Source: Steroidobacter agaridevorans
GTDB taxonomy: Bacteria; Pseudomonadota; Gammaproteobacteria; Steroidobacterales; Steroidobacteraceae
Reading direction: 5' to 3'
NCBI RefSeq assembly: GCF_009932555.1
Contig: NZ_BLJO01000003.1
Span: 682,001 to 746,000 of the forward strand
DNA: 64,000 nt
Below the pieces are notes generated by a model. That model did no database searches. It was not told the DNA's origin and was given only the letters and a program-made list of their open reading frames with translations. The translations under genes were made by a program, and so were the position numbers. Below are positions 1 through 48,277 of this stretch, piece by piece (position 1 is the stretch's first letter; each line of letters begins with the position of its first letter).

Positions 1-4
1 TCAC

Positions 5-117
5 CTTCCAGGCCGAGGCCGGACGGCCTCGCAAGGCGCAAGCGACCTGGAAGCTGAAGACCGGTGTGGCGTGCCACTCCCGCAGGCAATCTCGCTTGCG
101 ATCTTTCGGAGTGTGTC
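5..117 (+). promoter_or_regulatory. Structured leader module 1 (upstream of the gene at 118)
   Basis: Outer stem CTTCCAGG (5-12) pairs perfectly with CCTGGAAG (46-53). Inside is a hairpin CGAGGCC/GGCCTCG (14-31) with a GGAC loop. A second small hairpin GCAGGC/GCTTGC (82-99, one G-T pair, loop AATCTC) lies just before the ribosome binding site. The layout matches the leaders at 593, 1217 and 1890. The window begins inside or just before this element, so an upstream part may be missing. Candidate radC-type RNA motif or single-stranded promoter; the function is inferred. Confidence 0.55.
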
Positions 118-441
118 ATGAGTCGTCATATCTTCGATGCCGAGGTGCAGGAACAGCCCGTTCGCGTGACGATTGGATACGACCGGCCCACCGCCAAGTT
201 CTATCTGCACATCGGTTGGGTGGATTCCCAAACCGACGAGATCTTGTCCTACGCCTCGGATCTTAGCCTCGCTTACGAACCGTCCGATTTGAGGTCGATT
301 CGCCGATTTCTGGACAAAACCGGGATCGAGTCGCCTGCAGCTGTCTGGGCGGAAGTGTCATTCGATGCGACGAGTAAGGCTGGAAATCGCGTTGTGAAGC
401 ATTCGAGTGACGGCACTATGCGTGAGCTCGCTGCTTGGTGA
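118..441 (+). CDS. Small island protein of unknown function (107 aa)
   Basis: I do not recognise a named domain. The start at 118 is chosen because the second hairpin of the structured leader and a CGGAG ribosome binding site lie immediately before it; a longer reading from 64 would put coding sequence through that hairpin. The protein is soluble with no signal peptide or membrane segment. Visible features are an N-terminal MSRHIFDAEV and IGYDRP stretch and a C-terminal GNRVVKHSSDG stretch, a pattern I recall in short unnamed proteins of proteobacterial integrative elements. It is the leftmost of five plus-strand genes pointing toward the predicted oriT, so it would lie in the leading region and enter a recipient early. 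An accessory or anti-defence role is only inference. Confidence 0.7.
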   Translation: MSRHIFDAEVQEQPVRVTIGYDRPTAKFYLHIGWVDSQTDEILSYASDLSLAYEPSDLRSIRRFLDKTGIESPAAVWAEVSFDATSKAGNRVVKHSSDGTMRELAAW

Positions 442-592
442 CGTGAATCGTCTGAGCGAGAGCATCGGGTACTTCGCTGAACTAGCCGGTGCTCCCCTTC
501 ACACGCATTATTGCGTGGACGCGCTTCGCTTTGTTCTGTTCGCGCATACGGCCTGACCTTGCTGGATGGCCGACCTTGCCTGTTGCGAAGTT

Positions 593-719
593 ACCGACTC
601 CGATTCCACCGACCAAAGAGTCGCGCAGAGGCGCGCCCGCCGCGGACGGCGGCTTCGCTCTTTGGCGTCCGAATCGGAGTCGGTGCCTTATCGCGGGCAA
701 GTTCGCCCGAGAAGGAGAG
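593..719 (+). promoter_or_regulatory. Structured leader module 2 (upstream of the gene at 725)
   Basis: A 14-bp perfect inverted repeat ACCGACTCCGATTC (593-606) / GAATCGGAGTCGGT (671-684) encloses a second stem CCAAAGAG (613-620) / CTCTTTGG (658-665). Within it sit two hairpins, CGCGC/GCGCG (622-635) and CCGCCG/CGGCGG (637-652, loop CGGA), then CTTCG. A separate hairpin CGGGC/GCCCG (694-709) precedes the GAAGGAGAG ribosome binding site. The stem-junction plan is the same as at 1217-1315. Probably a transcribed leader; the regulatory mechanism is unknown. Confidence 0.65.
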
Positions 720-724
720 ATGTC

Positions 725-1081
725 ATGAACGACTCAATGGAGAGCACTGACGCCAACTCGACCGACACAGATGCGATGGCTTCCGCCCCGGTATCTCAAA
801 GGCTCGCGGAATTGGCGAGTCAACTTCGCGAAGCTGGCATCGTGCAGTTGGTCGCGGTCTATGAACGCGAGAACTGCGTGACGACATTCACAGTAACTTG
901 TGTCGATGCTCAGCAGCGCATCGGCTTATCACCATGCCCGATTCTGGTACTTGCTGAGGTGATAAGCATCTACGGGATACTTGTGCGCCAGTACGCTGAG
1001 GAAGGCGACAAGCGAGCGAGGGGACAGTTTGATTGGTATGTCCTTGATAACAAACTCACTCACGAGCACAAGAGCGCGTGA
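725..1081 (+). CDS. Small island protein, DUF6878-like paralogue A (118 aa)
   Basis: The start at 725 follows a strong GAAGGAGAG ribosome binding site; an ATG at 720 is out of frame. The N-terminal 25 residues are Ser/Thr/Asp-rich and probably disordered. The remainder (about 30-115) contains LREAGIVQLVAVYE, a central helix-rich stretch, and the C-terminal block GQFDWYVLDNKLTHEH. That block aligns by eye with GEFEWELVRDQLTHIH in the next gene (1331-1729), so the two are diverged tandem paralogues. From memory both resemble the DUF6878 family of integrative elements, whose function is unknown. It has its own structured leader and probably its own promoter. It lies in the predicted leading region of the element, so a role early after transfer is possible, but that is inference. 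Confidence 0.75.
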   Translation: MNDSMESTDANSTDTDAMASAPVSQRLAELASQLREAGIVQLVAVYERENCVTTFTVTCVDAQQRIGLSPCPILVLAEVISIYGILVRQYAEEGDKRARGQFDWYVLDNKLTHEHKSA

Positions 1082-1216
1082 CGCGACGTTGGGTCGCTGC
1101 GTCTAGGAGCGCGCGGAGCGCAAGGATGCGCTCCAACCCCACGCGGGATAAGCGTACTTCCGAATGTCGAGAGTAGGGAGGATTGCCTGATTGCGCGAAG
1201 ATAGCACGCCGTGCTC

Positions 1217-1326
1217 GCCGCCAAGAGTCGTGCATATGCACGACCGCCGCAGACGGCGGCTCCGCTCTTGACGGCTGCGCGCGCCGAGCTGGATCGAGCG
1301 CGGGCAATCCCGCCCAGGCGGAGAGC
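1217..1326 (+). promoter_or_regulatory. Structured leader module 3 (upstream of the gene at 1331)
   Basis: A three-way-junction layout is visible. The outer stem GCCGCCAAGAG (1217-1227) pairs with CTCTTGACGGC (1265-1275) with one mismatch. Hairpin two is a perfect 16-bp palindrome TCGTGCATATGCACGA (1228-1243). Hairpin three is CCGCCG/CGGCGG (1244-1259) with a CAGA loop, followed by CTCCG. A short hairpin GGGC/GCCC (1302-1315) precedes GGCGGAGAG and the ATG at 1331. The sequence of hairpin three and the stem closing it is nearly the same as in module 2. Confidence 0.65.
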
Positions 1327-1330
1327 GATC

Positions 1331-1729
1331 ATGAGCGACCGAACGAACGGAACCTCGTCAGACGCGCGAGAAGAGCGGTCTCAAACTCCACATTTGTCCC
1401 AAAGGATGCCGGCAGTAGCGGCAGCGCTGCGGCGGTCGAATGTAGCGTATGTGCGGATCGTGTACGACGGTGCTTGGGACACTGGACGAATGAGCGATCC
1501 GCTCTTCTATAGCGAAAATTTAGTACTTTTCAACCCGCTACTCAGCTCGAAAACCTATCGAGCTCTCTCACTATTCTTTCGAGAGCTGCTCGAGACACGC
1601 CACCCGGGCTGGCAAAACGCGGAAGGTTCGCGTGGCGAGTTTGAATGGGAGTTGGTGAGAGATCAGTTGACTCACATCCATGGCTGGCGACACTTCAGCT
1701 ATGACTTCGAAACCGTAGAAGGCTTGTGA
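1331..1729 (+). CDS. Small island protein, DUF6878-like paralogue B (132 aa)
   Basis: The start at 1331 (MSDRTNGTSS) follows GGCGGAGAG. The first 25 residues look disordered. The core begins LRRSNVAYVRIVYDGAWDTGRMSD, continues through a helical segment ending ETRHPGWQNAEGSRGEFEWEL, and closes with DQLTHIHGWRHFSYDFETVEGL. The pattern of a DG.WDTG motif, a GW-N-EGS-GEF stretch and a terminal tyrosine-containing strand is what I recall of DUF6878 proteins, which are common on proteobacterial integrative elements and have no assigned role. It is a paralogue of the gene at 725 and shares its leader type. No catalytic residues are evident. Most likely a small binding protein; function not assigned. 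Confidence 0.75.
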   Translation: MSDRTNGTSSDAREERSQTPHLSQRMPAVAAALRRSNVAYVRIVYDGAWDTGRMSDPLFYSENLVLFNPLLSSKTYRALSLFFRELLETRHPGWQNAEGSRGEFEWELVRDQLTHIHGWRHFSYDFETVEGL

Positions 1730-1889
1730 CCTCTGCTGAGGCGTGGACTTACAGGTCCGCGCCTCAGCGTTAGCTACGCGCGATTCTCGGACTTCCCAGA
1801 CCGGAGTCGATGTCACAGTTCAGATGATCCGGTCCGTCCATCCGAATGCCTGGCGAGCTGATGCGAATTGCCTGCATTCAATGAGTATG

Positions 1890-2022
1890 CCCCACCGTTC
1901 TCGCCGTCAATGCCTGCGCGCGACTGCGTCGTGCTCGCGAGCGCGCTTCGCGCGGCACTGACGGCTGCGCTTCGGTGGGGCGGGTCCTCGATGCAGGCAA
2001 TCCCGCCTGCCCAAGAGGAGAG
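1890..2022 (+). promoter_or_regulatory. Structured leader module 4 (upstream of the radC-like gene)
   Basis: Outer stem CCCCACCG (1890-1897) pairs perfectly with CGGTGGGG (1973-1980). Next inside is GCCGTCAATGCC (1903-1914) against GGCACTGACGGC (1954-1965), 12 bp with one mismatch, enclosing GC-rich hairpins between 1915 and 1953. A perfect small hairpin GCAGGC/GCCTGC (1993-2010, loop AATCCC) sits before AAGAGGAGAG and the ATG at 2027. Its position before a radC-family gene makes this the best candidate for the published radC RNA motif (Weinberg and colleagues), but covariance-model confirmation is needed. Confidence 0.65.
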
Positions 2023-2026
2023 ATCC

Positions 2027-2584
2027 ATGTGTGAGTGCAACGGATCCATCGACAACTCGGCCGGGCACGCATCATCCGGCTCACTGCCTGATCGGGAGCG
2101 GTTTACGACAACCTTATCTGCAAAGCATGGCGGCAGATACGTGAAACTGAGCGATGACGCCGTGATTGCCGTGGCCCTTCGGTTGGCCTCGAAACGTATG
2201 ATTCTGAGTGATCCCATCAACGAGCCGCGCGCGGCTCGAGAGTACCTGCAACTGCGTTTCGGGCGTCTGGAGTATGAAGTCTTTTCCTGTCTATATCTTG
2301 ACGCGAAATGTCGAGTGATTGCCTGCGTTGAGCTATTCCGTGGAACGGTCGACGGCGCCGCGATCCATCCGAGGGAAGTGGTAAAACAAGCGTTGGCATA
2401 CAACGCTACCTCCGTGATCTTTGTTCATAACCATCCAAGCGGCGTCGCTGAGCCGAGTCCGCAAGACAGACTCATTACTCGCCGACTTAAGGAAGCCTTG
2501 GCGCTCATCGACGTGCGAGTCGAGGATCATCTGGTGGTCGGGGACGCAACGATCGAGTCCATGGCTGAGCGCGGGCTCTTGTGA
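2027..2584 (+). CDS. RadC-family JAB/MPN-domain protein (185 aa)
   Basis: A short RadC-type protein containing only the JAB domain without the N-terminal helix-hairpin-helix of chromosomal RadC. Residues about 45-180 form the domain: LDAKCRVIACVELFRGTVDG, HPREVVKQAL, then the metal-binding HNHPSG at 134-139 with a downstream acidic residue in EPSPQD. The family consists of metal-dependent JAMM-fold proteins often found on integrative elements; the old link of radC to DNA repair was withdrawn, and the role here is unproven. The start at 2027 is fixed by AAGAGGAGAG just after the leader hairpin; the longer reading from 1868 would run through the leader. It is located in the predicted leading region with the ParB-like gene downstream. 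Confidence 0.85.
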   Translation: MCECNGSIDNSAGHASSGSLPDRERFTTTLSAKHGGRYVKLSDDAVIAVALRLASKRMILSDPINEPRAAREYLQLRFGRLEYEVFSCLYLDAKCRVIACVELFRGTVDGAAIHPREVVKQALAYNATSVIFVHNHPSGVAEPSPQDRLITRRLKEALALIDVRVEDHLVVGDATIESMAERGLL

Positions 2585-2598
2585 AGCGTCCACATAGG

Positions 2599-2620
2599 AG
2601 GGGGCGAGTTGTCGCTCCCT
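2599..2620 (+). terminator. Possible weak terminator after the radC-like gene
   Basis: A 9-bp stem AGGGGGCGA / TCGCTCCCT with one G-T pair and a GTTG loop lies 14 bases after the stop codon. It is followed by CACTTTG rather than a clean T run, so termination may be partial. Confidence 0.35.
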
Positions 2621-2695
2621 CACTTTGTAGCAAGCTATCGGAGTTGAGAATGGTGTTCTTCGCTGCCGCCTGGCTCCGATCATCGCTGTGTTCAC

Positions 2696-2765
2696 AAAAT
2701 CCGCGCCAGCGCGCAGACGCGCTGCTTCGCCCCGTTGGGGGCACGGATTTTTCCGGTCCCGCCGG
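2696..2765 (+). promoter_or_regulatory. Structured leader module 5 (upstream of the ParB-like gene)
   Basis: Outer stem AAAATCCG (2696-2703) pairs perfectly with CGGATTTT (2744-2751). Inside are hairpin CAGCGC/GCGCTG (2707-2724, loop GCAGAC), then CTTCG, then hairpin CCCC/GGGG (2730-2740). A following hairpin CCGG/CCGG (2753-2765) takes the place of the small GGC/GCC hairpin of modules 1-4. It lies 98 bases before the ATG, farther than the others, so it is a more divergent member of the set. Confidence 0.5.
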
Positions 2766-2863
2766 CATCTCGATCTTTTCGCGCGGTTGAAATCCGGTTT
2801 GCGAGCGGGTGAGCGGGGGTGAAATTTTATCCCCACTCTCACACTCAACACTGGAGATGCACC

Positions 2864-4714
2864 ATGAACAGTTCATTCGAGTCGCGATTGCTTCCGCTGA
2901 ACCGGCTGAAAAAATCACCGAGAAATGTTCGACAGACTCCGCACACTAAACAGCACATCGAAGCGCTGGCGAGAAACATCGATGCATACGGACAGATCCA
3001 CGAGATGACGGTCGAGACGGAGCGGGCTGATGACGGCCAGCCGACCGGCTATTACTTGGTCACTGCTGGTGAAGGGCGGCGGCTGGCGCAGCTACTGCGT
3101 GTGAAATGGAAGCGCATCGTTGAAGACGCGCTGATGCGATGTCAGGTGAACGACGATGCTAGTCCGAGGGGCATTAGCCTCTCGGAGAATGAGTTGTGTG
3201 CCTCGATGCACCCGGCAGATCAGTTCGTGGCGTTCAAGCAGCTCATCGACGATGGTTCCACCATCGAGGACGTGGCAGCGCAGTTTTCAGTAACACCGTC
3301 TGTCGTCCAACGGCGCTTGAAGCTGGCCAATGTGGCTCCGGACTTCATCTCGTTGTATCGGGACGGAAAGGTGACTATGGAGCAACTGATGGCATTTGCA
3401 ATCACGGAGGATCATTCCCGTCAGTGCGAAGTATGGAAGGAGCTGCCGCCGAACCGCAGAACGCCGGAGGATATTCGCGCCGCAGTCACTCTGCAGGAGG
3501 TGCCGATCACAGACCCATTGGCGCGCTTTGTAACGTTGAAGGCGTACGAGAAAGCTGGCGGACCGGTTCGGCGCGATCTATTTTCAGACGAGGACGATAT
3601 CTATCTTGTTGATCGTGCCCTGGTCGAGCGTATCGCCAAGGACAAACTGGACAGGCGCGCGGCAGCGGTGAAGAAGGAGGGTTTCGCTTGGGTGGAGGTA
3701 GATCTCAGCATGGATTGCTCGAAGCGGGCTACCTATGGGCGGGTCCGGACGATATCTCGTGAACCTACCGAGGAGGAGGCTGATCGCCTCCGGCGCGGTC
3801 AAGAGCGTCTTGATGCCATCGAGAAGGAGATCGAAGGCACGGGCGACGAGGAGACGCTGACCTTGTTGCATGCGGAACGGGAGGCGCTCGACGATCAGAT
3901 TGAGGCGGTGGAGGATTCACTGTGTGTGTCCCACCCGGACGATTTGGCTGTCGCCGGTGCGATCATTTCCATTGGAAGCGATGGCAAGGTGATCGTCGAT
4001 CGGAATCGCATCAGACCAGAGGACCGCCGACGGGCGATCACCGCTGCGGCAGACGGACGGGGCGAGACTGACAAGCAGCCGCGCACGCACTCGGCCGCAT
4101 TGACCAGACGCTTGACGGTCTACCGAACCGTGGCGCTTCAAGCTGCCTTGGTGAAGCAGCCCAACACAGCAGTCGTTGCGCTTGTGCACGCTCTTGTTCT
4201 GCGCACCTTCTATGCTCCAGGCGCTCGCGGAGGCAGTTCACTAAGGGTTGACTTAGAACCGCCGGAGCTTGAGCGGGACGCGGATGACGTGGTCCAAACT
4301 CGGGCTCATGCAGATATGCGGGAGCAGTACGATAGGCTGCGCTCGTCTTTGCCGGATGCGGAAGCGCTTTTCGGATGGCTCATGGAGCAGACAGAAGAGA
4401 CGCGGAAGGAGTTGATTGCGTACTGTGTCGCGCGATGCCTGAATGGAGTGCAGTCGGATGATCGGCGCAGTCCCTTTGATGAGGTAGCGAAGGCTGCGAA
4501 TCTCGACATGCGTGACTGGTGGATTCCTACAGCCGACGGGTACTTCGCGAGCCTACCGAAGTGGCGGATCTTGGAGGCTGTCGGGCAAGCCGCTCCGCCG
4601 GAGACAGTGCGCGCAATGGCGCTCCTCAAGAAGGGCAGTCTCGCCAAGTCGGCCGAGGAGAAGCTGTCGGGTAGCGGTTGGCTGCCCGCATTGTTGCGTG
4701 CTCACGTAGCGTAA
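2864..4714 (+). CDS. ParB-like nuclease-domain protein of the mobile element (616 aa)
   Basis: The N-terminal part (about residues 5-110) is a ParB/Srx-type domain: LLPLNRLKKSPRNVR, the IEALARNIDAYGQIH stretch, and VTAGEGRRLAQL, corresponding to the family's GERR box. A helix-turn-helix follows (about 150-185, EDVAAQFSVTPSVVQRRLKLANVAPDF), as in ParB. The C-terminal 400 residues include a charged, probably coiled-coil segment (EEADRLRRGQERLDAIEKEIEG) and a helical domain. Proteins of this long type sit on integrative elements and are not obvious partition proteins; no parA is visible next to it. The start at 2864 follows TGGAGATGCACC. A maintenance, regulatory or nuclease role is possible and I cannot choose between them. 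Predicted to enter the recipient first, nearest oriT. Confidence 0.85.
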   Translation: MNSSFESRLLPLNRLKKSPRNVRQTPHTKQHIEALARNIDAYGQIHEMTVETERADDGQPTGYYLVTAGEGRRLAQLLRVKWKRIVEDALMRCQVNDDASPRGISLSENELCASMHPADQFVAFKQLIDDGSTIEDVAAQFSVTPSVVQRRLKLANVAPDFISLYRDGKVTMEQLMAFAITEDHSRQCEVWKELPPNRRTPEDIRAAVTLQEVPITDPLARFVTLKAYEKAGGPVRRDLFSDEDDIYLVDRALVERIAKDKLDRRAAAVKKEGFAWVEVDLSMDCSKRATYGRVRTISREPTEEEADRLRRGQERLDAIEKEIEGTGDEETLTLLHAEREALDDQIEAVEDSLCVSHPDDLAVAGAIISIGSDGKVIVDRNRIRPEDRRRAITAAADGRGETDKQPRTHSAALTRRLTVYRTVALQAALVKQPNTAVVALVHALVLRTFYAPGARGGSSLRVDLEPPELERDADDVVQTRAHADMREQYDRLRSSLPDAEALFGWLMEQTEETRKELIAYCVARCLNGVQSDDRRSPFDEVAKAANLDMRDWWIPTADGYFASLPKWRILEAVGQAAPPETVRAMALLKKGSLAKSAEEKLSGSGWLPALLRAHVA

Positions 4715-4726
4715 GACAGTGCCCGG

Positions 4727-4752
4727 TGGACGCGGAGTGGAGGCCGCGTCCA
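4727..4752 (+). terminator. Hairpin after the ParB-like gene
   Basis: Perfect 9-bp stem TGGACGCGG (4727-4735) / CCGCGTCCA (4744-4752), 12 bases after the stop codon. There is no T run, so it is either a weak or Rho-assisted terminator or an mRNA 3' stabiliser. Confidence 0.4.
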
Positions 4753-4884
4753 TCGCTTGCCCGCTACCGTGCAAATTTGCAGAACCGCCTTCCGCTACAT
4801 CGATGTGGGCTTAAGCATCTGGATGGTCAGCGCCGCAGCTCTCGGCTGGAGCAAACAATCGACGACAGCACCCAAGGGCCTTTT

Positions 4885-4935
4885 TGCACAAAGAGGTGAA
4901 ATAGGCAGGATAGCCTTTCGGCTGCTCATGGGCCA
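4885..4935 (-). other. Predicted origin of transfer (oriT) with MobP-type nic core
   Basis: Read on the minus strand, this stretch shows inverted repeat AGCC-GAAA-GGCT (4912-4923) followed directly by TATCCTG and CC. TATCCTG|C is the nic core of IncP-like (MOBP) origins (consensus YATCCTG/Y), and a repeat immediately 5' of nic is the usual arrangement. The predicted cut is on the minus strand between the bases paired to 4906 and 4905. The site lies just upstream of the mobC and relaxase genes, where a cognate oriT is expected. With this polarity the bases below 4905 enter the recipient first, and the mob genes last. Confidence 0.7.
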
Positions 4936-4952
4936 CATTCATGTCCCATGAG
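4925..4952 (+). promoter_or_regulatory. Inverted repeat overlapping the mobC start codon
   Basis: CTCATGGG (4925-4932) and CCCATGAG (4945-4952) are perfect 8-bp arms. The right arm contains the mobC ATG (4948-4950). It could be a DNA operator for the ribbon-helix-helix MobC protein, or an RNA hairpin that hides the start codon. No Shine-Dalgarno sequence is visible before this ATG, and no other in-frame start exists back to a TGA at 4897. Confidence 0.55.
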
Positions 4953-5481
4953 TAACACGCGCATCCTTCGCACACGCCTGCCGGCGACGACACATGCAGT
5001 CGTCGAAGCGATCGCGCGTCAGCAGCAGCTCACAGAGTCGGCGTGGTTGAGGCGCCTGATTGAGACGACGCTTCAGTCTTCGGGTGTGGTGCTCGAGGCC
5101 GACTCGAAGGATGAGATGCCGCGCCAGGCGAGATTGATGGTCCGGCTTCTGGCGGACGATCAGGCATTGCTCCACGCCCGTGCCAAGGCCAGGGGAATGC
5201 CAATGGCGACATATGCGTCCCTAGTGATTCGGAGTCATCTGCGAGGCGTAGCTCCACTGCCCAGGGAGGAGCGGTTGTTGCTTACGCAGTCGGTCGGGCA
5301 GCTAAGTTCCATCGGTCGCAACCTCAACCAACTCGCCCGACATGCGAACCAAGGGGGCAGGGTAGTCGGCCCGAGCCGGGAAGATTTGAAGACGCTGTTG
5401 CGTGCATGCGAAGGTCTGAGGAACCACGTCAGGCAATTGATCGACGCCAACCTACGTAGTTGGGAGACTGGCCATGGGTAA
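4948..5481 (+). CDS. mobC: MobC-like relaxosome accessory protein (177 aa)
   Basis: The N-terminal half has the short basic strand-helix-helix layout of ribbon-helix-helix DNA-binding proteins (TRILRTRLPATTHAVVEAIARQQQLTESAWLRRLIE), repeated more loosely at about 50-95 (LMVRLLADDQALLHARAKARGMPMATYASLVIRSHL). The C-terminal block QLSSIGRNLNQLARHANQG is the signature of MobC-type accessory proteins of MOBP relaxases. It would bind oriT and help the relaxase melt the nic region. It overlaps the relaxase start by 8 bases, so the two are translationally coupled. Expression may be controlled by the inverted repeat covering its start codon. Confidence 0.85.
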   Translation: MSNTRILRTRLPATTHAVVEAIARQQQLTESAWLRRLIETTLQSSGVVLEADSKDEMPRQARLMVRLLADDQALLHARAKARGMPMATYASLVIRSHLRGVAPLPREERLLLTQSVGQLSSIGRNLNQLARHANQGGRVVGPSREDLKTLLRACEGLRNHVRQLIDANLRSWETGHG

Positions 5482-6469
5482 GCGCACGGTCGATCTTCGC
5501 AGCCAGAAACCACTCCTGGATATAGCGAGCTACGGCCGGCGTTCACCAGGTCATGGCCGAACCTTCACTCCCGCCGAGCGGGAGCAGATCGGTCGAACAG
5601 TGGCCCGCGTTCCCGAGGTCATGATCAAGGTGACGGGCGGCGGGCGCACCGTGGGCGCCGTGTGGAGACATCTACGTTACATCGATCGGCGCGGCGGGCT
5701 CGAGCTGGAGACGGATGATGGCGAGCGGCTCCACTTGCAGGGAGCTGAGAGGGCACTACTCGAAGATTGGGGGCTTGCGCTACAGGAGCGCGAAGACAAG
5801 GTAGTCTACAGGGGCCTGCCAGGGAGGAAGCCATCGAAGCTGGTACATAACGTGATGTTCTCGATGCCTAAAGGAACGCCGCCAGGCAAGTTGTTGGCCG
5901 CCGTTCGTCACTTCGCCCAGGAGACGTTCGCGCTTCAGCATCGTTACGCGATGGTGCTGCACACGGATCAAGATCATCCCCATGTGCACCTCGTCCTGAA
6001 GGCAGTCAGCGAGCAAGGCACGCGACTGAACATCCGCAAGGACACGTTGCGGCAATGGCGGCGGGATTTCGCAGAGGCACTACGCGCTCAGGGTGTCGCA
6101 GCCAACGCCACGGAGCGCGCGGTGCGAGGCGTGACTCGAACGCATCAGATGGACGGGATCTACCGAGCAATGCGCCGAGGGGAGTCGACTCGTTTCGAGG
6201 AGCGAGTGCAATCTGTGGCGAAGGAGTTGCGTAGTGGGCGGGTCAAGCTGGGTGGCAAGGAAAAACTGCTGCGGACTCGGCGCGACGTTGAGCGAGGGTG
6301 GGCCTTTGTAAGTGAACTGCTAAAGCACGATGGTGAGATCGAACTCGCCAGCCGGGTGCGGCAGTTTGTAAACGAAATGCCGCCGGCTTACGTCGACCGG
6401 GAGTGGATAGCCGTCGACATAGTCCGTCGGCTCAGGAGTTCGACGCCAGACAGGTCGAGAACTCTTTAG
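5474..6469 (+). CDS. MobP-type conjugative relaxase (331 aa)
   Basis: Relaxases nick oriT and stay covalently joined to the 5' end during transfer. The histidine motif HTDQDHPHVH is clear at 163-172, preceded by VMFSMPKGTPPGKL (about 127-140), as in MOBP/VirD2-like enzymes. The likely catalytic tyrosine is in HLRYIDRRG (Y69), inferred from similar relaxases. The rest is basic and helical with no helicase or primase domain, so this is a minimal relaxase of a mobilisable element. No type IV secretion genes are seen in the window; either they lie to the left or the element borrows a helper's apparatus. Its start overlaps mobC. The next gene (HerA) converges on it from the right. Confidence 0.88.
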   Translation: MGKRTVDLRSQKPLLDIASYGRRSPGHGRTFTPAEREQIGRTVARVPEVMIKVTGGGRTVGAVWRHLRYIDRRGGLELETDDGERLHLQGAERALLEDWGLALQEREDKVVYRGLPGRKPSKLVHNVMFSMPKGTPPGKLLAAVRHFAQETFALQHRYAMVLHTDQDHPHVHLVLKAVSEQGTRLNIRKDTLRQWRRDFAEALRAQGVAANATERAVRGVTRTHQMDGIYRAMRRGESTRFEERVQSVAKELRSGRVKLGGKEKLLRTRRDVERGWAFVSELLKHDGEIELASRVRQFVNEMPPAYVDREWIAVDIVRRLRSSTPDRSRTL

Positions 6470-6635: not shown

Positions 6636-8498
6636 CTAAGCGCCTTGCTGTTTGGGAACAAGTGCACTGAATTTTCTCGTATCGCTCTGGGGTTTGCCCA
6701 AATCGGGAAGTGGCTTCACATTGATCTTTAGTGGCATCTGGCTGGCAATCCCGCTGAAAATGCAGGTTCCCGTTGGTAGAGTCGGAATGGACTCTTCGGT
6801 TACACGATCGATGTACGACACCGCGCTGGAGATCGTGGCGAGATCGCGTTCATTAAGAAGCCTATGAATGAAGTAGTTGTGCGCCTGAGATGTAATCGTC
6901 GGCGAAATGTCGTTCGGCCTCTGGCTTGATATCGTAACGAAAACTCCGAACTTCCGCCCCTCTTTAATTATTTCCTCGAAAGTTTCGAGCCTGTAATCCT
7001 TCCAGCTCTCAGTCTCACGGAATGAAGCTGTAGAAAGAATGTTGTGCGCCTCATCGATAAGAATGCTCAGCGATTTATCAGGGCCTTCCGTCTTATGTTC
7101 AGCGTATAGTTTCTTTGCGAGTAGCAAAGGCAGTGTCTTCTTCATCTCTAAGTTAAGGTCTGCAAGACCAACAACAACAAAGTTCTTCTGCCAGAATGGG
7201 AGGTCACTTCCGAGATCGAATACTCGATCAATGTCGGCTTTCTTGGCCTTGAGCCTATTGATGACTGGTGCGACATGCTCGTTCTGAGCCCGATTCGCCA
7301 GCACATCAAAGATCAGGTGCAAATATAAAAAGACGATAAGCCTGGAAAGAAGGCTATCGCCAAGTTTGAAATTGGCGACATGATTATAGAGGCGCGTTTC
7401 GAGGATCTTTTCAGGTCTCTGCGCCAAGAACGGCCCGTCGGGCTTGATCCTAAATTCCGATACGGTGTTGTGCCATGCCAAATCCCCGGCCAAGTCCAAA
7501 GGATCGCCATTCTCATCCTCTGCTGGGGGCAAGATCTCGCGCAGGTAGTCCAACAACAAGAATGCCCGAATCTTGTCGCTCATCTGCAGAACATCTCTCA
7601 CTCGATTCCGGATAATGTTCTTCAAGTACGCTTCTGGGTCTCCGTCGTCTGCGTCATGAACCTTCTTGTAGAACCGAATGGCTCGGCTGAGGAATGGCTT
7701 TTGTGTCTTGTCTGTCGCATCCGACAAGATTGATAAAACCTCGATATCCAAGAGCGCGCCCTCTGCCATGGGAAGCTTGTCCGCATTGGCCTCCCGTGTG
7801 GAGAGGCGGTAAACTACCTTGTTCTCAGTGATGCAATGAGCGCTGGTGTATTCGCCATTGAAGTCAAAGAGAAGAAGTTTAATTTTCGTTTCAAACGCCG
7901 CCGGATTCCGTTTCGACAACGTGCCAACAAATTCCTGGTACAGGTACGCAAGCGTATTTGATTTCCCACTGCCAGTGTTCCCGAAGATCGCTATGTGGCT
8001 ATTGAACAAGCCATCAACGGGGAATTCGATGTCGAAATCGTGTCCCTCGATGCTGGCAATGGTTACGGACGGCGAGTCTGCCTCTTTAGTAAGGTTGTGA
8101 ACGAGCCGGATTTTATCGCGAGTTACGATGTATGCCTCGTTTCCGATTAGCGGCAGTTCCTTCGTCCCGCCAGTAAACTTCCCGCGTTCGTCAATATACC
8201 CGGCAAGGGCCACTGTCAGGATTCTCTTGTTTGTATTTACGGCCTCAAAGTTCTCGGCGCCTGTACGGGAATAGTCGTCTTCGATCTTCTCGCCTTCGAC
8301 TCTGCCGATGAGGCTCAGAAATCCCTTGCGGATCTCGACATAGCTGTTCACTGATATGTTTCTGAGGATGTCGCCGTCGAAGAACATGTCTGAAAGATTC
8401 TTGTTCTTGTCGACGAGCACATACACCTTCCGGCCATCTACGCCAGCGACCTCGCCAATCCGTAGAACAGCATCTTGGGTTGGCGTTGTAACATTCAT
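6636..8498 (-). CDS. herA: HerA-family hexameric ATPase of a SIR2-HerA defence pair (620 aa)
   Basis: The N-terminal 110 residues form a HAS-barrel-like beta domain. The Walker A motif GNTGSGKS is at 173-180, Walker B with DEAH (SILIDEAHNIL) near 470, and an arginine-containing ISSQRPNDI stretch follows, as in HerA/FtsK-type translocases. The start overlaps the stop of the SIR2 gene as ATGA, a tight two-gene operon. In SIR2-HerA (Nezha) systems HerA forms a hexamer that assembles SIR2 and provides ATPase and nuclease activities against phage. Unlike chromosomal archaeal HerA there is no NurA next to it. Codons and base composition are clearly more AT-rich than the flanking genes, suggesting separate acquisition. 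Confidence 0.88.
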   Translation of the reverse strand: MNVTTPTQDAVLRIGEVAGVDGRKVYVLVDKNKNLSDMFFDGDILRNISVNSYVEIRKGFLSLIGRVEGEKIEDDYSRTGAENFEAVNTNKRILTVALAGYIDERGKFTGGTKELPLIGNEAYIVTRDKIRLVHNLTKEADSPSVTIASIEGHDFDIEFPVDGLFNSHIAIFGNTGSGKSNTLAYLYQEFVGTLSKRNPAAFETKIKLLLFDFNGEYTSAHCITENKVVYRLSTREANADKLPMAEGALLDIEVLSILSDATDKTQKPFLSRAIRFYKKVHDADDGDPEAYLKNIIRNRVRDVLQMSDKIRAFLLLDYLREILPPAEDENGDPLDLAGDLAWHNTVSEFRIKPDGPFLAQRPEKILETRLYNHVANFKLGDSLLSRLIVFLYLHLIFDVLANRAQNEHVAPVINRLKAKKADIDRVFDLGSDLPFWQKNFVVVGLADLNLEMKKTLPLLLAKKLYAEHKTEGPDKSLSILIDEAHNILSTASFRETESWKDYRLETFEEIIKEGRKFGVFVTISSQRPNDISPTITSQAHNYFIHRLLNERDLATISSAVSYIDRVTEESIPTLPTGTCIFSGIASQMPLKINVKPLPDLGKPQSDTRKFSALVPKQQGA

Positions 8499-9535
8499 TT
8501 CTTTTTCTCGTTGAGCGCCGGGAGCACGCTTCCTAGGATTTCATTGAAGGCTTTGAAGTCGATTTTTCTGCCTGCAGGAGGGGCGATTACTTCGACGTTG
8601 TTGTATCCGTCGAATCGCTTAAGGAATGCCTCTGTGTCTGCGTCGCTGAATGCGAATGCAACAAGTCTCAATGTCGGATTCTTCAGGGCGCGCCGCGTGA
8701 TCCCAAGGATGTGTTCGTCCCCGAAGGAAAACCCAAAGCCAATAAGCAAGGTGCCTTCTCGATCAAGTTCGTTAGCGTAGATCCTGAGTAGTTCGTAGTA
8801 TGTGCTTTCCATCAGCGTTGTTCTGAACTTCTTTGTCTGTGGCAAAACAACAGCGTACTCATCGACGAATTCCCGAACCTTTGCTGGGCTCTTGTCATCG
8901 GGAAGTATGGGCTTTTTCTCAACAGAGAACAGAACGTTGTCGCCGTCCCTCTTCCAGGACAGAGATCCGTGCAGCTTGATGAGATTGATACAAGGGATGT
9001 CGACTTTGTAGTTATATAGGTTTCCTGTACTGGATGTCGTCGTAAAGAATGTGCGCGAGGAGTAGTCAGCACGGCCATTCAAGCTTGGCGTACGACTGAA
9101 CCCATCATTCAGCCGCAGAGATGGATATGAGAGCGATGCCTTTTCGATGAATAAGTCGTAGTTGGTAGTGAAGATCGTCGCTTGCTTGGGCAACAATCTG
9201 GTTCGGCGTTCGCTCAATATCGCCTCTATGATGCCCAGGTATTTGACATAGTGGCCAACGGTTTCAGCGTTCTTTGCGTTCTCGGCGTCGGCGAGCAAAT
9301 CGTTGGTGGGCGTCTGAATCGTGGTCAAAAAGTCATACAATTTCAGATAACCATCATCTTCCTTGTTGCTGTCGAATAGCTTTACGATCTCTTGTTCGAT
9401 CGAGCCTGCGGTTGCAATTGCTGGCCACGAGGCGCCGGACCCGATCATGAAATTGATGTGGCCAGACTGAAATGAGCGCGACAATCCTCTGTGGATGTCG
9501 TCGCTTACCGAGTCTAGTTTTAGTACACGCGCCAT
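8495..9535 (-). CDS. SIR2-domain NADase of a SIR2-HerA defence pair (346 aa)
   Basis: SIR2-fold effector, predicted to cleave NAD+ upon infection and cause abortive defence. Motifs in order: FMIGSGAS (about 29-36, nucleotide loop), IFTTNYDLFIEKA, LIKLHGSLSW with the catalytic histidine, and LIGFGFSFGDEHI near the C terminus, all typical of defence SIR2 proteins. The start at 9535 (MARVLKLDSV) is chosen because GGGGAA sits at proper spacing; the open frame extends to 9607 but would cross the promoter. The stop overlaps the herA start (ATGA). GC is low compared with the island backbone. Promoter elements are visible at 9613-9641. Confidence 0.88.
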   Translation of the reverse strand: MARVLKLDSVSDDIHRGLSRSFQSGHINFMIGSGASWPAIATAGSIEQEIVKLFDSNKEDDGYLKLYDFLTTIQTPTNDLLADAENAKNAETVGHYVKYLGIIEAILSERRTRLLPKQATIFTTNYDLFIEKASLSYPSLRLNDGFSRTPSLNGRADYSSRTFFTTTSSTGNLYNYKVDIPCINLIKLHGSLSWKRDGDNVLFSVEKKPILPDDKSPAKVREFVDEYAVVLPQTKKFRTTLMESTYYELLRIYANELDREGTLLIGFGFSFGDEHILGITRRALKNPTLRLVAFAFSDADTEAFLKRFDGYNNVEVIAPPAGRKIDFKAFNEILGSVLPALNEKKK

Positions 9536-9549
9536 TAGTAATATTTCCC

Positions 9550-9568
9550 CTGTGTGTACGGAACACAG
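9550..9568. promoter_or_regulatory. Small inverted repeat upstream of the SIR2 gene
   Basis: CTGTGT (9550-9555) and ACACAG (9563-9568) form a perfect 6-bp dyad between the predicted promoter and the SIR2 start. It could be an operator. It is short, so confidence is limited. Confidence 0.3.
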
Positions 9569-9612
9569 CTGACCGGTGCGGATCCGTTGTTGCGTGTTTG
9601 GCCGCACGCGCT

Positions 9613-48125: not shown

Positions 48126-48190
48126 GCGCGCGTTTTTTTGGCAACGAATCTCTCTCTTTAACCTGAATTCTCACATCTGACCGACACAGG

Positions 48191-48237
48191 TGACGGGGTG
48201 CTCGTACTGAATCCTCCGGGATGAATACGAGTCGTCA
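48191..48237 (+). promoter_or_regulatory. Structured rpsB leader (possible S2 autoregulatory site)
   Basis: Nested stems: TGACG (48191-48195) with CGTCA (48233-48237), CTCGTA (48201-48206) with TACGAG (48226-48231), and ATCC/GGAT (48211-48222) with a TCCG loop. The leader ends 40 bases before the rpsB ATG. rpsB-tsf operons of Gammaproteobacteria are known to be repressed by S2 binding a leader, so this is a reasonable candidate. Confidence 0.5.
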
Positions 48238-48277
48238 GCTGGGGCAGATGGAGGCTCAACCCCTTAGGAGTTTTGCG

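Follow-up and report, generated by a model that had tools for sequence, protein, structure and literature searches.

A repeated covarying element before radC and other mobile-element genes is a candidate family of single-stranded-DNA promoters

The left end of a 64,000-nucleotide (nt) stretch of the Steroidobacter agaridevorans genome (C3:682001-746000 of 8 Mb; this whole stretch is the window below) carries five plus-strand open reading frames (ORFs), all directed toward a mobC/relaxase pair. The closest NCBIfam model to the relaxase is MobP1 (NF041450, E 4.8e-33), below cut-off. Left of the window, ORFs resemble VirB10, VirB11 and VirD4 of a type IV secretion system by eye, no family search having been made for them, and a DUF932-like gene matches TIGR03299 of NCBIfam, also below cut-off. 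An initial annotation of the window had proposed that each of the five ORFs follows a structured leader of one plan, and had likened these leaders to the published radC RNA motif. Here we describe the element found at four of these places and its relatives elsewhere, and ask which molecule folds: an mRNA leader, or the DNA strand that would enter a recipient cell first.

The leaders before the ORFs at 118, 725, 1331 and 2027 (E1 to E4), the last of them before a radC-family gene as the annotation had stated, indeed belong together. Folded as RNA, they reach z values of -7.16, -6.9, -4.5 and -5.4 against dinucleotide shuffles, with 0 of 200 shuffles as good; together with a further copy just left of the window, the range is 4.5-7.9 standard deviations better than shuffles. 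The minus strands of these five copies, folded as DNA, give z values of -4.6 to -7.8 (E1, -5.51), again with 0 of 200 shuffles as good. A covariance model, R1, was trained on 21 copies that include E3 and E4 and exclude E1, E2 and three copies of a second island in the same genome. It recovers the held-out copies, with E-values of 1.2e-6 for E1, 4.3e-8 for E2 and 1.2e-13, 2.1e-9 and 3.5e-9 for the second island. At E ≤ 0.1 it marks eight places only in this genome, four extra matches being the opposite strand of the same places. The fifth leader, before the ParB-like gene at 2864, did not hold up as a member: R1 has no match there at E ≤ 0.1, the leader ends ~110 nt upstream of the start codon, and by eye there is no small hairpin at the Shine-Dalgarno sequence. 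Its fold is only a little more stable than expected by chance (z -2.12, equalled by 5 of 200 shuffles), and its stem is perhaps a terminator or an unrelated element.

Table 1. Features of the window and element copies elsewhere in the same genome (window positions unless marked C3)
Feature	Position	Strand	Details
Further element copy	C3:680899-681040		Just left of window; precedes DUF932-like gene
Element E1	1-98		Whole element C3:681964-682098 (37 nt left of window); precedes ORF 118-441
ORF	118-441	+	No Pfam match at E ≤ 0.1, no NCBIfam match at E ≤ 0.01
Element E2	566-709		Precedes ORF 725-1081; R1 50.8 bits, held out of model
ORF	725-1081	+	No Pfam match at E ≤ 0.1, no NCBIfam match at E ≤ 0.01
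Element E3	1173-1316		Precedes DUF6878 ORF; R1 96.6 bits, in training set
P0 3′ strand of E3, GCGCGGGCAATCCCGCCC	1298-1315	+	Alternatively small hairpin at Shine-Dalgarno sequence; predicted mRNA 5′ end region
DUF6878 ORF	1331-1729	+	PF21798, E 2.6e-7
Inverted repeat GCTGAGGCGTGGAC/GTCCGCGCCTCAGC	1735-1768		93% complementary; directly after stop of ORF 1331-1729, without T run
Element E4	1861-2009		Precedes RadC gene; R1 87.5 bits, in training set
RadC-like JAB protein gene	2027-2584	+	PF04002, E 1.5e-42
Fifth leader of initial annotation	2697-2751	+	Two small hairpins within AAAATCCG/CGGATTTT stem (AAAATCCG...CGGATTTTT); between radC and ParB-like gene
ParB-like protein gene, leading region	2864-4714	+	HTH_ParB E 0.0013, NF010406 E 1.3e-12, both below cut-off
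Probable nic core of oriT, TATCCTGC	4905-4912	-	35 nt before MobC/NikA-like gene
MobC/NikA-like accessory protein gene	4948-5481	+	PF21983 E 2.2e-10, PF05713 E 2.3e-6
MOBP/VirD2-like relaxase gene	5474-6469	+	PF03432 E 1.1e-13; NF010437 VirD2 E 6.1e-8
HerA ATPase and SIR2 protein genes, adjacent	6639-9607	-	Past relaxase; PADLOC HerA E 3.8e-203, SIR2 protein E 3.8e-112; HerA-SIR2-type defence pair
t44 RNA	48152-48260	+	RF00127, 64.6 bits; sole Rfam match of window at gathering score
Three element copies in a row (I1, I2, I3)	C3:78889-80199		Second island; precede two small ORFs and DNA methylase

The element is ~135-196 nt long and contains a three-way junction. Read on the plus strand, it starts with the 5′ strand of an outermost stem, P0 (GGCGGGATTGCC), followed by a linker of ~14 nt, P1 (ACCACGCCG), an internal loop, P2 (GTCAAGG) and the hairpins P3 and P4; the 3′ half returns through P2′, P1′, a linker of ~12 nt and P0′ (GGCAATCCCGCC) to the Shine-Dalgarno sequence and the start codon. 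The plan set out in the initial annotation (outer stem, inner hairpins, a CTTCG-like segment and GGC-AATCNC-GCC beside the Shine-Dalgarno sequence) is right for the four leaders, and P0 (GGCGGGATTGCC...GGCAATCCCGCC) had been overlooked. The 3′ strand of P0 is the same sequence as the small hairpin, and P0 and the small hairpin are therefore mutually exclusive. Copies of the second island have a longer interior, and between I1 and I3 whole stems are swapped while the adjacent letters are unchanged. The second-island copies also share an inserted, almost invariant module, GGCATAAACGGC...CGCCATTTATTCC, with an internal GC-rich hairpin (L006:960-1010, loci being cited by L numbers; the same part in I2, I3, L013 and L014). 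About 50-100 nt upstream of the element in L065, L092, L097, L114, L123 and others, there is a conserved stretch like GATCCCTGACGCC...GGGCCTGCGCGC that resembles the 3′ half of the element.

The covariation across islands that the annotation had anticipated is evident. In 21 sequences, both sides change in 20 of 48 pairs compared with 9.7 in shuffles, and the covariation score is 0.193 compared with 0.080, a value reached by 0 of 500 shuffles, for a structure derived from the same alignment on which it was tested. Shifting that structure by 1-3 columns abolishes the signal.

The family is spread well beyond this genome. A blastn search with one copy found it in 26 of 296 genomes of the order, and R1 with strict filters in 6 of 369 genomes of the class, the own genome being among the hits each time. 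Scanning with a 22-mer, one genome per species, yielded 77 stretches (the named loci), many of them labelled Burkholderiales, Thiobacillus or Steroidobacter relatives; the same scan of viral contigs gave 0 matches. R1 matches 72 of the 77 stretches, the others being L057, L063, L090, L120 and L122, of which L057 and L120 are labelled Actinobacteria. Over 82 sources, the model built from element copies gave 135 matches that reduce to 100 best-strand copies (93 in named loci, 7 own) in 75 of the 82 sequences. For composition and promoter counts, these were further reduced to 59 copies at <90% identity. Copies tend to stand several in a row, 3-5 in the islands examined, and at least two copies are present in 17 of 72 named loci. 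In a plasmid collection, a relative of one radC copy occurs in 278 of 72,556 records, 150 of them labelled Salmonella.

What follows the element is equally characteristic. An ORF comes after 95 of the 100 copies, and in 86 of these 95 its start lies 13-25 nt downstream. Among 32 representative downstream proteins, picked for variety and including the DUF932-like protein left of the window, there are 11 RadC, 4 DUF2958, 3 DUF932, 3 SymE-like and 2 antirestriction proteins and 1 methylase. On two annotated plasmids the host gene order is integrase-radC-DUF932-ParB-DUF736-DUF2958-...-relaxase, most genes pointing the same way, toward the relaxase; judged by this gene order, the host elements appear to be of the Tn4371 type. 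Weak extra copies (R1 E 0.001-0.08), left uncounted, precede DUF932, ParB-like and DUF2958 genes of Tn4371-type elements. The element is one covarying structured family that precedes several genes of mobile elements, radC included, and recurs in many islands.

This description recalls the radC RNA (RF01754), which is known from mobile-element settings before such genes; like an RNA found upstream of radC and conjugative-element genes, the present element often precedes RadC (the 11 representatives mentioned above). The two are nevertheless distinct, and the likeness drawn in the initial annotation does not amount to identity. RF01754 has no match in window positions 1-5500 at E ≤ 10, none in ten element-bearing loci at E ≤ 5 and none in the own genome. 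The model itself works, as it matched other genomes of the same order with up to 124.8 bits (gathering score, 40 bits). In the reverse search, R1 found nothing better than E 0.11 on nine loci with radC RNAs. Identity with the radC RNA is thus rejected by covariance models both ways. Nor did any of the 4227 models of Rfam 15 reach its gathering score on an element, the best being a miRNA model with 39.1 of 124 bits. Integron attC sites were dismissed as an identity by eye, no search for them having been made.

If the element acts during conjugation, the strand that enters the recipient first matters. The probable nic core in the window, TATCCTGC, has the core familiar from RP4 and T-DNA borders. 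Between 4600 and 5200 it is the sole match to YATCCTGY; the 64-kb window holds 9 such matches, with 5.95 expected by chance. In the second island of the genome, ATATCCTGC stands at L011:3510 on the minus strand, before mobC. In L069, L080, L116 and L118, CTATCCTGC lies ~35 nt before a homologous mobC, on the other strand from the element genes, and each of these loci holds 1-3 further matches to the nic pattern elsewhere. In total, an RP4/VirD2-type nic motif lies ~35 nt ahead of mobC on the template strand, between mobC and the element genes, in 6 of the 6 islands having both elements and a homologous mobC (the window and the five loci just named, of which L069, L080 and L116 seem close relatives), 78 loci besides the window having been searched for mobC. 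By motif, this placement suggests that the first-transferred strand is the template of the element-bearing genes.

Loop composition points to the same strand. Unpaired plus-strand letters of the 59 copies are T 0.37, C 0.30, G 0.22 and A 0.11. Purines make up less than half of the loops on the mRNA-like strand in 54 of the 59 copies, compared with 2 of 30 cobalamin riboswitches and 0 of 29 RNase P RNAs; the flanks lean likewise to a lesser degree, with unpaired purines of 0.51 in gene flanks and 0.46 upstream. Purine-rich loops are the rule for RNA, and for DNA there is no established rule. Since the plus-strand loops are pyrimidine-rich, it is the template strand whose loops are RNA-like in composition.

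The folded template strand also carries promoter-like letters. Counts refer to 58 copies; the cut-off L121 is omitted from the promoter-score set, and E2, which lacks TTG[AG]C, from the set used for the -10 columns. The arm that would serve as non-template, i.e. the 3′ arm of the folded transferred strand, reads TTGACG in P2 in 51 of 58 copies. Past it by 15 nt is a hexamer xAnnnT in 56 of 57 copies, in the form TAnnnT in 37 and TGnTAnnnT in 35. Within the 5′ linker, A(-11) and T(-7) are each kept in 57 of 58 copies, and the columns between them and the eleven after them in 34-67%; the 3′ linker consensus has no kept column. These two are the positions held by sigma70 in the open complex. Both lie outside the search 22-mer and are unpaired in the model, adjoining the weak outer end of P1. 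Among 34 copies without the 22-mer, a set that overlaps the 58-copy set (e.g. L016/L080, L017/L069 and L026/L118 share contigs, judged by length), 26 have TTGAC and 31 have xAnnnT at the same place. The best sigma70-type score of the non-template arm is 12.82 compared with 8.66 (standard deviation 0.15) in mononucleotide shuffles, its -35 and spacer part being helped by the search 22-mer. The corresponding values for the other arms are 8.76/8.11 for the plus 3′ arm, 7.06/7.77 for its reverse complement and 8.72/8.98 for the plus 5′ arm.

Further details fit this picture. The -10 stretch borders a loop with a median of 14 nt (non-template) by 12 nt (template), P0 begins a median of 9 nt after T(-7), and the unpaired loop from the -10 to P0 is about the size of an open-complex bubble. 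At pair 64/300, the putative -35 arm has A in 58 of 58 copies (fixed by the 22-mer in named loci, TTGAC also being present in most 22-mer-free copies, as given above), whereas its partner varies between T (29 copies) and C (28 copies), which means a T-G wobble on the transferred strand. A single-stranded promoter would explain why GTCAA is retained on the 5′ arm although the strand pairing with it drifts to CTGAC. In the window, the minus strand has a putative -35 TTGGCG (1224-1219), 15 nt and -10 TATCTT (1203-1198) in E3, and TTGACG (1910-1905), 15 nt and CATACT (1889-1884) in E4. By eye, E2 reads TTGGTC (616-611), 17 nt, TAACTT (593-588), and E1, left of the window, a weak CTGGAA, 17 nt, CAGACT, xAnnnT being one nt further out in these two. 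The weak Tn4371-type copies carry, also by eye, TTGACA/G-16-TACGGT or TTGACG-15-CAGACT. We had considered the TTGAC of the plus 3′ arm as the -35 of the gene itself, and dropped it, since CTGAC replaces it in about half of the copies and there is no -10 downstream, while the other arm fits.

From these sequence features, we think it on balance probable that the elements serve the leading region as single-stranded-DNA promoters of an Frpo-like kind, forming a family unrelated to Frpo in sequence. The family, its covariation, the transferred strand as assigned by motif, the predicted fold of that strand and its promoter-like letters are read directly from the DNA. In the proposed mechanism, the minus strand would enter the recipient first during conjugation, and its DNA would form a long P0-P1-P2 hairpin with two small hairpins at the tip. 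Host RNA polymerase with the main sigma factor would bind this hairpin like a double-stranded promoter with a ready-made bubble (~-11 to +3). Transcription would begin in the 3′ linker, pass P0 as the downstream duplex and enter the gene. The resulting short mRNA would start near the GGC-AATCCC-GCC hairpin and continue with the Shine-Dalgarno sequence and start codon, and the small hairpin may have a role near its 5′ end. Synthesis of the complementary strand would then remove the hairpin, leave the -35 and -10 facing away and turn the gene off. With one promoter per gene, RadC, DUF932, DUF2958, antirestriction and methylase proteins could be made fast and transiently on entry.

Several observations weigh against such promoters. 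In Tn4371-type elements nic was not located when sought. At 15 nt the spacing is on the short side for sigma70, the hexamers fall below full consensus, the search pattern itself dictates TTGAC and most of the spacer in the 77 named loci, and the copies are related, so that the counts are not independent. On Frpo itself, the tests are not validated: the promoter score does not raise Frpo1/Frpo2 over shuffles (11 vs 11.6), and loops in the Frpo surroundings are not consistently purine-rich on the transferred strand. Base-pair strand tests are neutral, weak or leaning to RNA. Over all helices G-U outnumber A-C by 155 to 77, with 55 and 28 from one column each; this holds in P0 (50 to 19), P1 (58 to 11) and P3/P4 (44 to 12), P2 going the other way (3 to 35). 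Among 1x1 mismatches, G-U are 50 to 41 A-C, in 24 columns each, compared with 21 to 11 in the RNase P control. Folding energy favours the minus strand weakly, in 37 of 59 copies. In controls the plus strand is better in 27 of 29 RNase P RNAs and 16 of 30 cobalamin riboswitches, and because the cobalamin control fails we do not use this test as proof. In Frpo regions, cut into overlapping 300-nt windows, the transferred strand folds better in 4 of 4 windows for Frpo1 and 3 of 4 for Frpo2.

Some of these points would suit a plus-strand cis-regulatory mRNA leader, such as a riboswitch, attenuator or protein-binding RNA, in which exclusion between P0 and the small hairpin switches translation. The tight distance to the start codon seen in 86 of 95 copies fits a regulatory leader equally well, P0 and the mutually exclusive small hairpin are both kept (e.g. 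GGCTTGCC/GGCAAGCC in I3), and the covariation and the excess of G-U over A-C in P0, P1 and P3/P4 are what such an RNA would give. We nonetheless consider it unlikely, with a real chance of being right. The plus-strand loops are pyrimidine-rich in all but a few copies, the A(-11)/T(-7) pattern is left unexplained, and by eye neither alternative fold hides the Shine-Dalgarno sequence. Moreover, a plain 5′ untranslated region served by an upstream promoter finds little sign in the promoter scores of the 150 nt upstream of the element, where the mean best score is 7.96 forward and 7.63 reverse (56 copies). Hence the leader interpretation of the initial annotation survives in part: a repeated, covarying, structured element does precede the genes, but an mRNA leader as the folded molecule is doubtful, given that the kept unpaired bases, the composition of the loops and the orientation of the islands all favour the transferred strand. 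That strand might also fold for another job, as a primer or primosome site (ssi) or as a binding site for a transferred ParB-like or RadC protein. Orientation and loops fit this equally, and Frpo reportedly also primes replication, going by the title of Masai and Arai 1997; priming, however, needs no copy before many genes at a narrow distance from the start codon, nor does it account for promoter-like letters being kept, and we regard such a role as improbable. Less probable still is an ordinary double-stranded minus-strand promoter for an antisense RNA, or a palindromic duplex operator: TTGACG-15-TAnnnT does read leftward in duplex DNA, but neither version needs tens of covarying pairs or two capping hairpins, and the transcript would enter variable upstream sequence.

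If the single-stranded-promoter interpretation is right, a trick known from plasmids such as F would extend to a large family outside Rfam, and expression from entering single-stranded DNA would be more widespread in kind, including many environmental bacteria. It would also explain how integrative elements could produce anti-defence proteins immediately. According to PMC11541004, most plasmid single-stranded promoters recognised so far were identified because they resemble one of five known Frpo/ssi sequences, and candidates based on structure exist in a few islands. A broader proposal, which we hold only tentatively and think rather doubtful, is that in Steroidobacter-type, Burkholderiales and Tn4371-type conjugative elements the leading region depends on a series of single-stranded-DNA promoters, one for each gene, in which the bubble is preformed. 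On the same proposal, the 'cis-regulatory RNAs' published for conjugative elements, and in particular radC RNA, would really be folded single-stranded DNA of the transferred strand. The family would make it possible to test clearly if some orphan 'RNA motifs' are DNA structures, with A(-11) and T(-7) as the bases to examine.

Within the portions of the literature on single-stranded promoters, the radC motif and Tn4371 that we covered, no description of this family was recognised, and one may exist elsewhere. Some copies have integrative and conjugative elements of the Tn4371 type as hosts, and the main text of PMC2789088 on these elements makes no mention of promoter, secondary structure or DUF932. 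The STAXI motif (RF01728) is likewise a repeated structure, near antirestriction and SSB genes, for which the authors weighed single-stranded DNA (Weinberg et al. 2010, PMC2864571); it differs in consisting of pseudoknot repeats in Enterobacteriales, and it is absent from the Rfam matches here. The radC RNA comes from the same paper, and its copies in our searches are clustered as well (4 in G555). It also shares the pyrimidine-rich loops on the mRNA-like strand (9 of 9 copies), but has another consensus and structure, and the models do not cross-match. For radC RNAs (RF01754; L042, L043, L046, L047 and L179-L182), the reverse complement folds better in 7 of 9. Published radC RNAs too may be single-stranded DNA structures.

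Frpo/ssi of plasmids F and ColIb-P9 resemble the present elements in lying in the leading region, with genes toward oriT and the transferred strand as template. They are also long imperfect hairpins with promoter letters in the stem, where the present elements have putative ones. In contrast, no sequence relation to F was found for the element described here (R1 found no match in F 48.0-67.5 kb, 19.5 kb, at E ≤ 0.01), which has a three-way junction, serial copies and other hosts, Tn4371-type elements among them. In F, according to parts of PMC9849209, Frpo1/2 drive early genes, and their deletion abolishes early expression in recipients. The leading region of F resembles the islands studied here in its genes as well, with DUF932, ParB-like, antirestriction and methylase genes on one strand.

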